A stretch of DNA of 47,530 nt, taken from positions 1 to 47,530 of the forward strand of contig CADEGN010000019.1 of assembly GCA_902826865.1 (NCBI GenBank), read 5' to 3'. Below are positions 24,773-30,467 of this stretch, in pieces (within the stretch, counting starts at the first letter, position 1; every line of letters begins with the position of its first letter). The position numbers were made by a program, and so were the translations under genes. The DNA comes from an uncultured Myxococcales bacterium (GTDB lineage: Bacteria > Myxococcota_A > Polyangia > Nannocystales > Nannocystaceae). The notes beneath the pieces were generated by a model, which ran no database searches, was not told the origin of the DNA, and saw only the letters and a list, made by a program, of their open reading frames with translations.

Positions 24773-24836
24773 TCACGGACGCGGTGCCGCGGCGAGCTCG
24801 CACCCTCGATCCCCGAGACCCGGAGCATTGTTGTCC

Positions 24837-25946
24837 ATGAAGACGCGCGCAGCGATTGCATTCGAAGTCGGCAAGCCCCTTGTGATCGACGAGGTCGATC
24901 TCGACGGACCCAAGGCGGGTGAAGTCCTCGTCGAACTCAAGGCCACCGGCGTGTGCCACACCGACGAGTTCACGCGTTCGGGGGCCGACCCCGAGGGTCT
25001 GTTCCCCGTCATCTTCGGCCACGAAGGCGCGGGCATCGTCCGAGAGATCGGCGCGGGCGTGACGTCGGTTGCGCCCGGCGACCATGTAATCCCGCTCTAC
25101 ACACCCGAGTGTCGCGGGTGCAAGTCGTGCCTGTCGCGCAAGACGAACCTGTGCACGGCGATTCGTGCCACCCAAGGCAAGGGCGTGATGCCCGACGGCA
25201 CCAGCCGCTTCTCCTATAAGGGGCAGAAGATCCACCACTACATGGGCTGCTCGACCTTCGCCAACCACACCGTGCTGCCCGAGATCGCCTTGGCCAAGGT
25301 CCGCAAGGACGCGCCGTTTTCGTCGATCTGCTACCTCGGGTGCGGGGTGACCACCGGGGTCGGCGCGGTGCTGTGGACCGCCAAGGTCGAGGCGGGTGCG
25401 AACGTGGTGGTGTTCGGACTCGGCGGCATCGGCCTCAATGTGATCCAGGGCGCACGGATGGTGGGTGCGGACAAGATCATCGGCGTCGATGTGAATCCCG
25501 CCCGCGAGGCGATCGGTCGCCAGTTCGGCATGACGCAGTTCGTCAATCCAAAGCGGATCACCGGGGATCTGGTCGCCCACCTTGTTGAGTTGACCGGTGG
25601 AGGCGCGGACTATTCGTTCGAGTGTGTTGGCGACGTCAAGCTCATGCGCCAGGCCCTCGAGTGCTGCCACCGAGGATGGGGCACGAGCGTCATCATCGGG
25701 GTGGCCGGAGCCGGCCAGGAGATCGCGACTCGTCCGTTCCAACTCGTTACCGGACGCGTGTGGAAGGGCTCGGCGTTTGGCGGCGCGCGCGGGCGCACCG
25801 ATGTGCCGAAGCTGGTCGATTGGTATATGGACAAGAAGATCGCGATCGATCCGCTCATCACGCACAAGCTCCCGCTCGAGCGCATCAACGACGCATTCGA
25901 TCTCATGCATGTCGGCGAATCGATTCGCGCGGTGGTCGAGTTCTAA
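24837..25946 (+). CDS. frmA: S-(hydroxymethyl)glutathione dehydrogenase (class III alcohol dehydrogenase)
   Basis: Oxidises the glutathione adduct of formaldehyde to S-formylglutathione with NAD. The ATG at 24837 follows GGAG (24822-24825). The 369-residue protein has the catalytic zinc ligands in TGVCHTDEF (Cys40) and GHEGAGIV (His62), and CYLGCGVTTG (third ligand). The structural zinc Cys are in CRGCKSCLSRKTNLC (92, 95, 98, 106), and the nucleotide fold VFGLGGIGLNVIQGARMVGA. The segments FSYKGQKIHHYMGCSTFANH and GVAGAGQEIATRPFQLVTGR are typical of class III. The hydrolase gene overlaps its stop by one base (TAATG), so the two steps are coupled in translation. Confidence 0.96.
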   Translation: MKTRAAIAFEVGKPLVIDEVDLDGPKAGEVLVELKATGVCHTDEFTRSGADPEGLFPVIFGHEGAGIVREIGAGVTSVAPGDHVIPLYTPECRGCKSCLSRKTNLCTAIRATQGKGVMPDGTSRFSYKGQKIHHYMGCSTFANHTVLPEIALAKVRKDAPFSSICYLGCGVTTGVGAVLWTAKVEAGANVVVFGLGGIGLNVIQGARMVGADKIIGVDVNPAREAIGRQFGMTQFVNPKRITGDLVAHLVELTGGGADYSFECVGDVKLMRQALECCHRGWGTSVIIGVAGAGQEIATRPFQLVTGRVWKGSAFGGARGRTDVPKLVDWYMDKKIAIDPLITHKLPLERINDAFDLMHVGESIRAVVEF

Positions 25947-26791
25947 TGCCTGGATCCAACTTGACCGACCGCAGCTCGCAGGCATGCTTCGGCGGGACCC
26001 TGGGCTTTTACGCCCACGCATCGCGCTGCACGCAGACCGAGATGCGGATCGGGGTGTACGTGCCGCCCCATCCTCCGGGTGCACGGATGCCGGCGCTGTA
26101 TTTCCTGGCTGGGCTCGCGTGCACGGAGGAGACATTCGCCATCAAGGCCGGAGCCCAGCGCGGCGCCGCGCGGCACGGCCTTGTGCTCATCACGATGGAT
26201 ACGAGCCCGCGGGGGCTCGATCTGCCGGGTGAGAGCGAGCACTGGGACTTCGGCGTTGGCGCAGGGTTCTATGTCGACGCCACCGTAGCGCCGTGGGCAA
26301 GCAACTACCGCATGTACTCGTACGTCAGCGAGGAGCTGCCCGCGCTCATCGAAGCCGAGTTTCCCGTTGATGAACGCCGTGGGATCTTTGGTCACTCGAT
26401 GGGTGGTCATGGTGCGCTGGTGATCGCGCTGCGCAATCCGGATCGATATCGATCGGTCTCTGCGTTTGCTCCGATCTGCAACCCCATGGCCGTGCCTTGG
26501 GGGCAGAAGGCGTTCTCCCGCTATCTCGGCGACGACCAACACGCGTGGGCAGCGTACGACGCGTGCGAGCTCGTACGTCGTCGCCCGTTGGCCGGCGGCA
26601 TCCTGATCGATCAGGGCGACAACGACTCATTTCTCGCGCGCGAGCTCCGCCCTGAGGCGCTCGAAGACGCCGCGAAAAGCTCGGGCCAGTCGCTGACAAT
26701 GCGCCGACACCCCGGCTACGACCACTCGTATTGGTTCATCCAGTCGTTCGTGGATGACCACCTCGCGTGGCACGCCGAACAACTCGGCTAG
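25946..26791 (+). CDS. fghA: S-formylglutathione hydrolase
   Basis: Hydrolyses S-formylglutathione to formate and glutathione, completing formaldehyde detoxification. The 281-residue alpha/beta hydrolase starts at the ATG overlapping the dehydrogenase stop. It has the nucleophile elbow GHSMGGHGAL (Ser151), YFLAGLACTEETF, MDTSPRGLDLPGES, FGVGAGFYVDAT, the acid in IDQGDNDSFL and the catalytic His in HPGYDHSYWFI; all match the esterase D/FrmB family. Formaldehyde could arise inside the cell from demethylations, for example by the Rieske enzyme at 12.2 kb, or from the environment. Confidence 0.95.
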   Translation: MPGSNLTDRSSQACFGGTLGFYAHASRCTQTEMRIGVYVPPHPPGARMPALYFLAGLACTEETFAIKAGAQRGAARHGLVLITMDTSPRGLDLPGESEHWDFGVGAGFYVDATVAPWASNYRMYSYVSEELPALIEAEFPVDERRGIFGHSMGGHGALVIALRNPDRYRSVSAFAPICNPMAVPWGQKAFSRYLGDDQHAWAAYDACELVRRRPLAGGILIDQGDNDSFLARELRPEALEDAAKSSGQSLTMRRHPGYDHSYWFIQSFVDDHLAWHAEQLG

Positions 26792-26966: not shown

Positions 26967-28103
26967 ATGGGAACCAACGTCGAGCAGCGCACCCGAGCCT
27001 CCCATGTGGTGGGGCGGCTCCTGGCGGTTACCGCGACACTTGCGAGCTTCAGCGTCCCCGCGCTGGCCAGCGCGCACATGGGCAGCACCAAGTCGATCGA
27101 GCTCAGGCACACCTCCACGGGCGCGACCGTCCAGGTCGAGGTCGACGCAGTGGACGCCGCCCTCGCCATCGGTTTGCCGATGCGGGCAACCCCGGCACAG
27201 CTCGACCGCCACGCACCACTCGTGCGTGGCTGGCTGACCGCTGGGATCACCTTGGACTCAGGCGCGGGCCCCTGCACCTCCGCCACCGGCGAACTCGCCC
27301 ATGCTGAGTCCGACGGTCGCGCCATCGTGCGCGCCAGTATGTCGGTCGACTGCCCGGCGAGTGCCGGAGAGTTGCGACTCCGCGACGACACGGTGTTTGC
27401 CGACGACCCCGACCACGAGACGTTTGTGGCCGTTGTCGGCGACGGCGGGAGCGAGGGCCACGTGCTCCGTGGCGATTCGCGGACGCTTCGCATCGCGGCA
27501 ACACCGTCGAGTCTGCGCACCGCGGTGGCATTTCTTCGCGAGGGCGCTTTCCACCTCGTGACCGGATACGACCACCTGCTCTTCTTGCTCGCGCTCGTGC
27601 TCGCCTCCGGCCTGGCCGCACGAACGCTAGGCCTGCGCAGGGGATTCACCGACGTGGCTTGGGTGGTAACGGCATTCACCGCCGGGCACAGCGTCAGCCT
27701 CGCCGCCGCCGCCCTCGGGTGGATCGTTTTGCCTTCGTCGTTGGTCGAAGTGGCGATCGCGGGATCGATCGTCGTCGCCGCCGGGATCGAGCTCGTACGC
27801 CGTGGCCCGCCGGATCGTCGCCTGCGCCCCTGGCTCGCAGGAGCGTTCGGCCTGGTGCACGGGTTTGGTTTCTCCTCGGTGCTCGCCGAGGTCGGCCTGC
27901 CGACGGCTCAGCGCGTGCTCGCGCTGGCCGCCTTCAACGTCGGCATCGAGCTTGCTCAACTAGCGTTTGTCGCAGCGGTGATGGTGCCGCTCGTATGGGC
28001 CGCACGACACCCGGGCTATCGATTAGTAGTGGTACGCGGAGGTTCGCTGGCGATCGCAGCCTGTGGCTGCGTGTGGCTGGTCGAACGTGGCCTCGGATCG
28101 TAA
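26967..28103 (+). CDS. HupE/UreJ-type multi-span membrane protein
   Basis: From ATG 26967 (AGGAG at 26951-26955) the 378-residue product has a signal peptide cut near PALASA-H, then a periplasmic beta-rich domain (STKSIELRHTSTGATVQVEV...). A membrane part follows, about residues 185-375, with some six hydrophobic segments. The latter holds the HupE/UreJ hallmarks GAFHLVTGYDHLLFLLAL and FTAGHSVSLAAAALGW, with conserved His/Asp that could bind a metal; HGFGFSSVLAEVGL is also typical. Classical HupE and UreJ are linked to nickel handling, but no hydrogenase or urease genes are here, so this may carry another metal or act in another way. A second frame start at 26754 overlaps fghA and is not credible. 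Confidence 0.87.
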   Translation: MGTNVEQRTRASHVVGRLLAVTATLASFSVPALASAHMGSTKSIELRHTSTGATVQVEVDAVDAALAIGLPMRATPAQLDRHAPLVRGWLTAGITLDSGAGPCTSATGELAHAESDGRAIVRASMSVDCPASAGELRLRDDTVFADDPDHETFVAVVGDGGSEGHVLRGDSRTLRIAATPSSLRTAVAFLREGAFHLVTGYDHLLFLLALVLASGLAARTLGLRRGFTDVAWVVTAFTAGHSVSLAAAALGWIVLPSSLVEVAIAGSIVVAAGIELVRRGPPDRRLRPWLAGAFGLVHGFGFSSVLAEVGLPTAQRVLALAAFNVGIELAQLAFVAAVMVPLVWAARHPGYRLVVVRGGSLAIAACGCVWLVERGLGS

Positions 28104-28120
28104 GCGCCGATCAGGGCGCT
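28103..28120 (+). terminator. Hairpin overlapping the HupE stop codon
   Basis: AGCGCC (28103-28108) and GGCGCT (28115-28120) pair perfectly around GATCAG. The first base is the last base of the TAA stop. A partial terminator or an RNA-processing stem inside the operon are both possible. Confidence 0.4.
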
Positions 28121-28154
28121 CACAGCCAGCCACGATCTATCAAGAGAGAAAAAT

Positions 28155-28182
28155 GGGAGCGCGCCACCAGGCTTTCGCTCCC
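28155..28182 (+). promoter_or_regulatory. Hairpin just before the ribosome site of the propeller lipoprotein gene
   Basis: GGGAGCG (28155-28161) and CGCTCCC (28176-28182) pair across 14 nt; GGAGG (28185-28189) and the ATG (28194) follow at once. The stem's right side ends two bases before the ribosome site, so it could tune translation or protect the 5' end after processing. Confidence 0.4.
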
Positions 28183-28193
28183 GTGGAGGACGC

Positions 28194-29153
28194 ATGCAAT
28201 ACAAAACAGCCATCCTACCAGGCGTCGCCGCCTTGGCACTCACCGCAGCCTGCGGCGGCGGGGAGTCGGCATTGCCCGACGAAGCGCCAACTGTCTTCGA
28301 GAGGATCGTGGACAAGGGGTTCCAAAACGCCGGAGCCGTCGACGCCAGTCCGGACGGCGCAACGTTGTCTGTCCCAGCCTACGACGACACAAACGTGCCC
28401 ACCATCTTCTCCGTCGACGTGGCCGGTCGCTCACTCGCGCCGATCGTCGGAGGCGTACCCCTACTCTACCCGTCGGATCTCGCGACCTCGTGCGACGGTG
28501 ACACGTTGTTTGTCAGCGATCTCGGGATTCCGAGCGCGGCATACGAGATCGGTGGCGACCCAACACCGGCAGCCGGCGGTGGATCTGTGTACGCCATCGA
28601 TCTTGCCGGCGGATCCATGTCCCAACTCGCCGCCACGGGGATCGCTCGCGCGACCGGAATCGCGATGGGCACCGACTGCAAGACGCTCTTTGTCGCCGGC
28701 TTCACAACGACGGAAGAGCCCGCCGTGTTTGCGCTACCGATCGGTGGCGGCGAAGCCGAGGCTCTCCACGCCGGCGCACCATTCCGCTCGCCCACCGGGC
28801 TCCACGTCGACGAACAAGACACGGTGTGGATGCTCGATCACGCCGCGCACGATGAAAACGGCGAGGGCGTCCTGTTCTCGATCACGCGCGACGGCGACGT
28901 GAACTTCATCGCCAGCGGCCTGGGCATGGGCCGGCACGGCGGCTGCAGCCTCGCACCCGGTGGCAAGACCGCGGTCATCCCGATCACGGAGGACGGTAAG
29001 ACGATGCTGTTCACCGCCAACACCGAAACCGGCGAGCTGAAACCCATTGCCGGCCCTGACCTCGAGTACCCCACCGGCGTGGCCGCTGCTTCCGCCGCCC
29101 CGGTGATGGTCGTGGCCAGCGAAACCGCGATCTTTAGCGCCATCTACGAGTGA
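28194..29153 (+). CDS. Lipoprotein with NHL/SMP-30-like beta-propeller
   Basis: A 319-residue protein with a lipoprotein signal MQYKTAILPGVAALALTAAC (Cys20) and strong ribosome site GGAGG. The rest repeats a propeller-like pattern: GAVDASPDGATLSVPAYD, YPSDLATSCDGDTLFVSDLG, IARATGIAMGTDCKTLFVAG, FRSPTGLHVDEQDTVWMLDH, GRHGGCSLAPGGKTAVIPI, EYPTGVAAASAAPVMVVAS. That is about six units of a sugar-lactonase or NHL-type blade. No lactonase active-site residues can be assigned. It sits 90 bp after the HupE-like gene and 18 bp before the DUF4331 gene, so the three are probably one operon. Role unknown; a scaffold or sensor in the periplasm is inferred. Confidence 0.78.
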   Translation: MQYKTAILPGVAALALTAACGGGESALPDEAPTVFERIVDKGFQNAGAVDASPDGATLSVPAYDDTNVPTIFSVDVAGRSLAPIVGGVPLLYPSDLATSCDGDTLFVSDLGIPSAAYEIGGDPTPAAGGGSVYAIDLAGGSMSQLAATGIARATGIAMGTDCKTLFVAGFTTTEEPAVFALPIGGGEAEALHAGAPFRSPTGLHVDEQDTVWMLDHAAHDENGEGVLFSITRDGDVNFIASGLGMGRHGGCSLAPGGKTAVIPITEDGKTMLFTANTETGELKPIAGPDLEYPTGVAAASAAPVMVVASETAIFSAIYE

Positions 29154-29171
29154 GAAACGGAGAAATCAACC

Positions 29172-30467
29172 ATGAATAACCGCACCACGATTCTGCTCTC
29201 AACCCTCGCATCAGCGGCCGGCTTGGTCGCGCTGCCCGGCACCGCGTCCGCATCCAGCCACCGCGAGGCTCCGGCAATCGGCGAGGACCAATTCGCTGAC
29301 AACACCGACGTATACAGCTTCATCAGTCCAAGCGACCCTAACCGCCTTGTGATGGTGGCCAACTACGTTCCGCTCTTGATCCCGTCGTCGGGGCCAAACT
29401 TCTACCGCTTCTCCGACAACGTTCGCTACGAATTCCGGATCGACAATAGCGGCGACGCTGTCCCTGACGTTGTGTACCACTTCGCGTTCTCGACCTCGGT
29501 CGCCAACGGCAACACGTTCCTTTACAACGTGGGACCGGTTGACTCCGTCGCGAGCCCGAACCTGAACGTCCGGCAGAAATATGACCTCTTCATGGCCTAC
29601 CGCGACGCCAACAACAACAAGAAGCTCGAGCAGCTGGTGGCCGGCGGTGTGGTAGCGCCCTGGCATGTCGGCGATCGCACGTTCCCCAACGAAAGCTACG
29701 AAGGCGTTGCACTCGGGGCGACCGCGACCGCTAGCGATGGCTCGAAGGTCTTTGCCGGCCCGCGCGATGAACCTTTCTTCGTCGATTTGCACGTGTTCGA
29801 TCTGCTTGGGGTCGGCGGCGCCCCGACCACCGATGGCATCAACGTGATGTCCCTCGTGCTCGAGGTCCCGATCGATCGGATTTCCAGGCTGCAGCAACGC
29901 CCGGCGGATGCCTCGGCGAAGCAAGCCATCGCCGGGATCCAGGCCCGCGCGTTGCGTCCGACCGTCACTGTGCGACTCGGCAACAGCCCCGATATCAACT
30001 TCGGCGGGTTCACCCAGGTATCGCGGCTCGGTTGGCCCCTCGTCAACGAGGCCGTGATCCCGCTCAAGGACAAGGACAAGTACAACCGCAGCGAGCCAGC
30101 ACAGGACGTGCAGAACTTCGGGGCCTACATCCTCAATCCTGAGCTGCCCGGCCTGCTCAACCTCGTGCTCAACGCAGGCTGCGCAGATACACCGCAGGGC
30201 GGACGTACGGACATCGTCGGCCTGCTCGCACCCAACGGAACCGCGCCGGCGGATCTGCTGCGGATCAACATCGCCCAGGGCCAGACCTACGCCCACTCCG
30301 GCTTCCCCAACGGGCGCAAGCTCGAGGACGACGTCACGGATACGCTGCTGAGCGTGATCTGCAACAACGGTGGACCACTCGGCGACGGCGTCGACAGCAA
30401 CGACCTACCGTTCACCGAGACGTTCCCCTACCTGGCGTCGCCGCACTCCGGCAACCCGGCGATGTGA
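29172..30467 (+). CDS. Secreted DUF4331 protein
   Basis: The 431-residue product starts at ATG 29172 after GGAGA (29159-29163). A signal peptide ends at PGTASA. The mature start SSHREAPAIGEDQFADNTDV, then YSFISPSDPNRLVMVANYVP, is the classic DUF4331 opening. Later come FYRFSDNVRYEFRIDNSGD and LHVFDLLGVGG and FPNGRKLEDDVTDTLLSVI. DUF4331 proteins are secreted; the family has no firmly assigned function that I can rely on. Here it follows the propeller lipoprotein by 18 bp and lies in a unit with a HupE-like membrane protein. That repeated company, if conserved in other genomes, would point to a metal- or stress-related envelope system. Confidence 0.9.
   Translation: MNNRTTILLSTLASAAGLVALPGTASASSHREAPAIGEDQFADNTDVYSFISPSDPNRLVMVANYVPLLIPSSGPNFYRFSDNVRYEFRIDNSGDAVPDVVYHFAFSTSVANGNTFLYNVGPVDSVASPNLNVRQKYDLFMAYRDANNNKKLEQLVAGGVVAPWHVGDRTFPNESYEGVALGATATASDGSKVFAGPRDEPFFVDLHVFDLLGVGGAPTTDGINVMSLVLEVPIDRISRLQQRPADASAKQAIAGIQARALRPTVTVRLGNSPDINFGGFTQVSRLGWPLVNEAVIPLKDKDKYNRSEPAQDVQNFGAYILNPELPGLLNLVLNAGCADTPQGGRTDIVGLLAPNGTAPADLLRINIAQGQTYAHSGFPNGRKLEDDVTDTLLSVICNNGGPLGDGVDSNDLPFTETFPYLASPHSGNPAM

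Follow-up and report, generated by a model that had tools for sequence, protein, structure and literature searches.

A secreted DUF4331 protein as a candidate partner of HupE- and NicO-type metal permeases in a bacterial envelope module

The three-gene locus and its proteins

The subject of this analysis is a set of three genes in an uncultured Myxococcales bacterium (Nannocystaceae; assembly GCA_902826865.1, contig CADEGN010000019.1), located in a stretch of 47,530 nucleotides hereafter called the window. The genes are co-directional and encode a HupE/UreJ_2 permease, a propeller lipoprotein and a secreted protein of the DUF4331 family, with intergenic gaps of 90 and 18 bp. A sequence-only reading of this DNA had placed the three genes in this arrangement, which open reading frames (ORFs) and Pfam matches confirm, and had suggested that they form an envelope system not described before, which might serve metal uptake or sensing. 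As set out below, the trio is the mainly myxococcal version of a wider module in which DUF4331 accompanies a tetratricopeptide repeat (TPR) protein and a permease, and a role in metal capture is tentatively proposed for it. The features of the locus are the following.

26967..28103, + strand: HupE/UreJ_2 permease with a putative N-terminal Ang-1-type periplasmic domain, 378 aa (PF13795, E 2.9e-44)
26967..27074, + strand: predicted HupE signal peptide, ending ...ALASA (from the sequence; AxA ahead of H also in relatives)
27075..27077, + strand: codon for the predicted mature His1 of HupE
27552..27575, + strand: HX5DH motif of the permease, mature H160-H167 (invariant, 19/19)
28194..29153, + strand: propeller lipoprotein, 319 aa, with lipobox LTAAC and Cys20
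29172..30467, + strand: secreted DUF4331 protein, 431 aa (PF14224, E 5.3e-104)
29172..29252, + strand: predicted DUF4331 signal peptide, ending ...GTASA (from the sequence and the -3/-1 residues of relatives)
29253..29261, + strand: predicted mature DUF4331 N-terminus Ser-Ser-His, an X-Z-His of the amino-terminal Cu(II)/Ni(II) (ATCUN) type

The large periplasmic domain that had been attributed to HupE is real, spanning approximately mature residues 1-145 in the model of the mature protein (predicted local distance difference test score, pLDDT, 89.9). The His/Asp motif of the HupE/UreJ family, HX5DH, is likewise kept, its residues being mature H160, D166 and H167 in the window protein and invariant across all 19 sequences of alignment A3. 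At the predicted cleavage point, placed by the -3/-1 residues, the window HupE reads ASA/HMGS. The same predicted A/H start occurs in 24/24 HupE ORFs (15 scored by script, 9 judged by eye; both copies of one contig, L034 and L074, included) and in 56/57 ORFs of NicO, the permease family found at the corresponding loci of other phyla; these are the matches that reach the N-terminus, 4/28 HupE and 1/58 NicO matches that end short of it being left out. This count is the unselected test of the A/H start, since the rows of alignment A3 were chosen to start with His and its first column is all His for that reason.

Sequence searches of the PDB with HupE and with its profile returned no match. By structure, the top VIA row for the periplasmic domain was Cu-bound Ang-1 (9GCE; Z 12.6, root-mean-square deviation 3.1, 136 residues), model residues 1-143 being superposed onto chain residues 1-157 at a sequence identity of only 13%. 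The Ang part of alignment A3 has no invariant Asn/Asp column, which was sought as the second oxygen ligand (Asn41/Asp33 in the described proteins); Asn41 of Ang-1 is itself stated not to be highly conserved (PMC12537917). Judged by its PF13795 match, predicted His1 and modelled Ig-like beta-sandwich, the window HupE would be an Ang-1-type anglerase.

The second protein had been described as a lipid-anchored beta-propeller, a description that stands as regards its lipobox cysteine, Cys20, kept in 16/17 aligned members, and its phmmer match to the designed 'Pizza' propellers (E 9e-9). Its match to the Pfam family NHL lies below the curated cut-off (14.4 bits against 20, E 0.039), and for this reason it is named here only a propeller lipoprotein.

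The third protein covers the PF14224 profile from end to end (1-421 of 421), and the model of its mature form (pLDDT 91.3) mixes strands and helices. PDB sequence searches with the protein and its profile gave no match, and a scan of viral contigs with the protein found no relative. Fold searches returned only Ig-like beta-sandwich rows (antibodies) with Z of at most 6.2, a middling score; the fold was assigned to no family, and no clear PDB relative emerged.

Distribution of DUF4331 and its partners

DUF4331 exceeds its cut-off in 72/282 Myxococcota genomes, 32 of which hold full-length genes, and HupE_UreJ_2 is present in 194/282. A proximity test was made on the 33 full-length DUF4331 genes of these 32 genomes, omitting shorter and split forms, the contig-end partials G184:C79 and G258:C54, and HupE rows that were weak or matched only the second half. 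Of these genes, 20/33 have HupE_UreJ_2 no more than 5 kb away, against 0.098 expected given how many genes there are and how large the genomes are (Poisson P 2.6e-39, kinship ignored), and the 20 span 8/14 families. When 33 Myxococcota loci were read (the window omitted, G258 and G265 contributing two each), the propeller gene was found immediately upstream of DUF4331 in 19, and within 5 kb there was a TPR gene in 23, HupE in 19, NicO in 0, and HupE together with the propeller in 11. A sister genome (G099, a metagenome-assembled genome (MAG) of a Nannocystaceae bacterium; locus L034) holds the identical trio in identical order. The genes thus recur together within the phylum, and the rarity of joint occurrence that would have refuted the sequence-only reading is not seen.

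In the window genome a TPR homologue is encoded on a separate contig (E 1e-49, 36% identity), and the 18 kb read around it contain no DUF4331 or HupE match. Split DUF4331 halves were also observed in this genome, at the ends of contigs C171 and C300.

Beyond Myxococcota, the best 80 of at least 590 DUF4331-matching stretches among named genomes gave 79 further loci (L075-L153), 49 from Streptomyces and the rest from other Actinobacteria, Chloroflexi, Acidobacteria, Eisenbacteria, and unassigned or Proteobacteria MAGs. Of the 69 loci with 2.5 kb available downstream, 66 have a TPR gene closely following DUF4331, or 67 if L122, counted as lacking one, is included for its TPR gene overlapping the DUF4331 end; an upstream TPR gene was found in 0/74 testable non-Myxococcota loci. 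Where 3.5 kb was available (65 loci), the script scored NicO in 54, HupE in 1 and neither in 10, one of the latter, L082, carrying NicO in a longer frame (55/65). By group, NicO accompanies DUF4331 in 43/44 Streptomyces loci, and the other 21 comprise 11 with NicO and 1 with HupE. The permease slot therefore holds two metal-permease families, HupE in Myxococcota and mostly NicO elsewhere, transporters of the NicO/RcnA kind filling it in most actinobacterial and several Chloroflexi and Acidobacteria loci read. The NicO partner has a secreted domain beginning HPLGNF, whose profile matches that of the HupE periplasmic domain weakly (probability 40-50), so that homology of the two domains is not claimed. 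In L127 (10900-13254) a NicO-type partner seemingly has two permease modules, the second with an HX4DH motif. Extracytoplasmic function (ECF) sigma factors are usual stress regulators, and a gene for one lies within 3.5 kb of DUF4331 in 45/65 loci; three anti-sigma proteins that were scanned are of the RskA type.

Plasmids carry the module as well. Among 47 plasmid records with a DUF4331 match, 11 were read. DUF4331, TPR and HupE stand together in Marinobacter, Lichenicola (TPR weak, E 0.004) and a Comamonadaceae bacterium, the last also having a gene annotated SMP-30 (without a Pfam match here), and DUF4331 with TPR in Adhaeribacter and Miltoncostaea. The Pseudoalteromonas order is sigma factor, anti-sigma factor, DUF4331, Ig-like protein and TPR-like protein; the five Rhodobacterales loci have no TPR or HupE annotated near DUF4331. 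A Pfam tally of 78 neighbour proteins, hand-picked from the nearest 148 of 214 neighbour ORFs, found no other family in more than 2/78 (top 25 families), so no further conserved partner is seen. Altogether, DUF4331 with a TPR or permease partner was found in six bacterial phyla. The trio proposed earlier as the system in its own right holds up in its co-occurrence within the phylum, but its exact composition is confined mainly to the myxococcal version of the DUF4331-TPR-permease module, to which the propeller is a mainly myxococcal addition (19/33 loci).

Candidate metal sites, location and metal

The clearest feature that DUF4331 proteins share is at their predicted mature N-terminus. In a count made with a DUF4331 profile stripped of its first five mature residues, His stands at predicted mature position 3 in 124/124 DUF4331 ORFs of other loci (123 distinct, L034 and L074 being one contig). 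The mature starts are SSH in 118, ASH in 4, SGH in 1 and GGH in 1, preceded by A (116), G (7) or S (1) at -1 and by A, S, T, G, L, V or I at -3. The rows of alignment A2 were picked for His at position 3, and its invariance there is by selection. As a crude background, 226 signal-peptide-like proteins of the same loci have His at +3 in 0 and at +1 in 4 cases. In diverged split DUF4331 genes His3 is retained in 6/6 examined, the first residues now being ADH or SDH; these six are a small part, as 41/73 matching Myxococcota genomes hold only split or short DUF4331. Such two-ORF forms were seen in many Myxococcota, the six first halves being those of L067, L069, L170, L171, L172 and L173; a HupE gene follows in L171 and a TPR-like ORF in L172.

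The predicted mature X-X-His of DUF4331 should be an ATCUN-type Cu(II)/Ni(II) motif, defined as X-Z-His with a free amine and Z other than proline (PMC8277166). The same source presents serum albumin and histatin-1 as ATCUN proteins with X-Z-His at a free N-terminus and Z other than proline, as predicted for DUF4331. Unlike in those proteins, the free terminus of DUF4331 would come from signal peptidase acting on a large conserved bacterial protein.

Several features suggest where this terminus would reside. In 5/5 Rhodobacterales plasmid records read, type II secretion system (T2SS) genes adjoin DUF4331 on the opposite strand, facing it, which suggests that DUF4331 could be a dedicated T2SS substrate in these bacteria. 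The facing gene is GspK/PulK, with DUF4331 at L157 6983-8608, L161 7001-8638, L162 7001-8608, L163 358-1920 and L164 6986-8545; a prepilin peptidase gene also adjoins in 4/5, L163 beginning too near the record end. The Adhaeribacter protein carries a type IX secretion system (T9SS) sorting domain. A C-terminal hydrophobic segment was scored in 56/124 DUF4331 ORFs; two of these, from Myxococcota, appear spurious, and the remainder are mostly actinobacterial membrane anchors followed by arginines. DUF4331 thus seems bound for the cell surface.

With respect to the metal, the Myxococcota DUF4331 of G147 (L061 8657-10297) ends in a plastocyanin-family domain of approximately 100 C-terminal residues (Copper-bind, E 3.8e-12; 46.9 bits, the cut-off being 21.2). 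In the window genome, which is 91% complete, no match was found to urease, the NiFe-hydrogenase large subunit or CbiC, in agreement with the earlier remark that the usual hydrogenase and urease partners are missing; nor was there a NicO match, in a search whose positive control gave matches in 5/14. Of the 32 DUF4331 genomes, 3 have a strong urease match (E<1e-50) and 3 more a urease match just over cut-off, while NiFe-hydrogenase is over cut-off in 6 (in 2 as a single full-length match) and CbiC is found in 1. A search for nickel superoxide dismutase matched nothing anywhere, controls included, and hence carries no weight either way. RbAng-1a binds Cu2+ at 74 nM and Ni2+ at 220 nM (PMC12537917), and ATCUN sites hold Cu(II) with sub-picomolar to femtomolar dissociation constants (PMC8277166). 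Since the plastocyanin fusion and the scarcity of the nickel and cobalt enzymes searched (urease, NiFe-hydrogenase, CbiC) favour copper over nickel or cobalt, copper(II) would be the likeliest metal, with nickel second.

Direction, rival explanations and relation to known systems

The account preferred here, although held tentatively and as something short of probable, is that the trio is an envelope module in which a divalent transition metal would be caught outside the cytoplasm and passed on to the inner-membrane permease. Signal peptidase would uncover two metal sites, the Ser-Ser-His of DUF4331 and His1 of the Ang-1-like domain of HupE. Secreted DUF4331, positioned at the cell surface or beyond it, would gather metal and give it up to the Ang domain, and the permease would then bring it inward via its conserved His/Asp helices. 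As a docking scaffold, the lipid-anchored propeller might serve in the window and the TPR protein, encoded on another contig in the window genome, in other lineages. Observed directly are the genes and their order, their conserved co-occurrence, the sequence motifs, the predicted folds and the plastocyanin fusion of one relative; from these we infer the cleavage sites, metal binding, metal identity, transfer between proteins, import direction and scaffold role. The suggestion of an envelope metal system, made earlier for this locus, gains support from the Ang-1-like fold, His1, X-X-His, the presence of NicO in the permease slot and the plastocyanin fusion; as to sensing, nothing found spoke either way for these three proteins. 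Import is favoured on two grounds: nickel transport by members of the HupE/UreJ family has been reported (PMC2667541), and the uptake model proposed for anglerases has metal flowing inward, with Ang-1 feeding its permease (PMC12537917). A broader version, somewhat more doubtful, makes DUF4331 the founding part of a widespread surface metal relay across six phyla, in which copper would be passed between two sites freed by signal peptidase and either HupE or NicO would fill the permease slot.

A number of observations weigh against this import account. For the Ang domain, zinc-bound ZrgA (Z 12.2) ties with 9GCE and PA4063 scores approximately 11, and 9GCE ranks only fourth by Foldseek E-value; the ZrgA and PA4063 entries (8f1b, 7amx; fold like the Ang domain, Z 11-12) are described as zinc-bound and, unlike the window HupE, were deposited without a permease domain. 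On the DUF4331 side, model residues 1-10 are among the least certain (pLDDT 69), the plastocyanin fusion occurs in only one of 124 ORFs, and the 226-protein background is poor because its cleavage rule missed the permeases' own His1 too. Moreover, His3 may be structural, since conservation runs across SSHREAP. The NicO partner is similar to RcnA, an efflux pump (E 3e-31 to 4e-48 for three proteins, below the curated cut-off), and 13/33 DUF4331 genes have no HupE near them. The strongest objection concerns thermodynamics: ATCUN sites are far tighter than the measured anglerases, which bind at 62-220 nM (PMC12537917), so that moving Cu(II) from DUF4331 to HupE would be uphill unless it were reduced to Cu(I), whereas export into a surface sink would run downhill.

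This last point leads to the closest competitor of the import account, somewhat unlikely in itself, according to which the permease expels copper, nickel or cobalt, and the metal passes to the His1 domain and is then trapped by DUF4331 on the surface or outside it, shielding the envelope. Affinities that run outward, from nanomolar anglerases to femtomolar or sub-picomolar ATCUN sites, would suit such sequestration, as would the likeness of NicO to RcnA, a nickel/cobalt efflux transporter, the ECF sigma genes near DUF4331, and the T2SS, T9SS and anchors that put DUF4331 outside. The nickel transport reported for HupE/UreJ and the uptake proposed for anglerases speak for the opposite direction, however; the RcnA similarity stays below the curated cut-off, and no efflux-pump partner stands out in the neighbour tally. 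Import and export are thus close rivals. Less likely again is that the module, like classical HupE/UreJ and NiCoT, supplies nickel or cobalt to an enzyme of these metals that has escaped recognition. Both permease families, HupE and NicO, are of the nickel/cobalt kind, ATCUN binds Ni(II) too, and NiFe-hydrogenase over cut-off or strong urease occurs in 6/32 and 3/32 DUF4331 genomes, respectively, but the window genome lacks urease, NiFe-hydrogenase and CbiC matches and CbiC appears in only 1/32.

It is more improbable still that DUF4331 is a surface protein or enzyme unconnected with metal, in which SSHREAP serves folding or docking and the permease is an incidental or regulatory partner. The equal conservation of A6, P7 and other residues with His3 fits such a role, and function is unreadable from a fold with no clear PDB match; yet His3 stays in the examined split forms while residues 1, 2 and 4 vary, two permease families, both with a predicted His1, share one slot, and one DUF4331 is fused to plastocyanin. 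That the three genes are mere chance neighbours is very improbable indeed. HupE is common in the phylum, and none lies near 13/33 DUF4331 genes, some of them on short contigs, but the 20/33 proximity against 0.098 expected already makes chance very unlikely, and 11/33 loci have all three genes within 5 kb, with the order kept in the sister genome.

Anglerases Ang-1 and Ang-2, described in 2025 as fused to HupE/UreJ-2 permeases, have in common with the window HupE the signal peptide, mature His1 and Ig-like domain, all three predicted in the latter, and the membrane domain. The neighbours named for them include DUF4198, indigoidine A-like, PfkB, metallophosphatase and DUF916 proteins (PMC12537917); that paper makes no mention of DUF4331, NicO, RcnA, ATCUN or lipoprotein. 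The HupE/UreJ nickel permeases of hydrogenase and urease clusters have the membrane domain and HX5DH in common with the window protein, which differs from them by its added periplasmic domain and by residing in a genome without a hydrogenase or urease match; likewise, that genome has no match to the NicO of NicO/RcnA systems. In the literature searched, outside which most subscription papers and preprints lie, no published DUF4331-TPR-permease module or metal role of DUF4331 was found, in keeping with the earlier view of the system as undescribed. The main text of that literature does not name DUF4331, and searches with HPLGNF and with T2SS plus Rhodobacterales likewise gave no paper on the system. 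The permease type has been described since 2025, and what is new is the secreted DUF4331 partner in a candidate metal-capture permease system. DUF4331 is widespread, and the present evidence supplies it with a partner set and a likely location. If the proposal is correct, the newly described anglerases belong inside a larger system, Streptomyces and other bacteria possess an unrecognised metal pathway, and a reason is suggested for the retention of a HupE-type permease by a genome in which no nickel enzymes are recognised.

As to the surroundings of the locus, promoter and terminator scans gave nothing informative. Just upstream in the window (24828-26791) lies a glutathione-dependent formaldehyde pair, a class III alcohol dehydrogenase and an S-formylglutathione hydrolase, which nothing found links to the DUF4331 module. 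Elsewhere in Myxococcota, Ig-like lipoproteins of one cluster occur near DUF4331 in six loci (L038, L039, L042, L043, L047 and L056); that of L047 has DUF4399/DUF6130-like domains and repeated GHxH stretches, and the corresponding match in L038 is below cut-off. One further protein cluster is found directly upstream of DUF4331 in L051, L052, L053 and L065, its L052 member being collagen-like with a DUF7151 domain.

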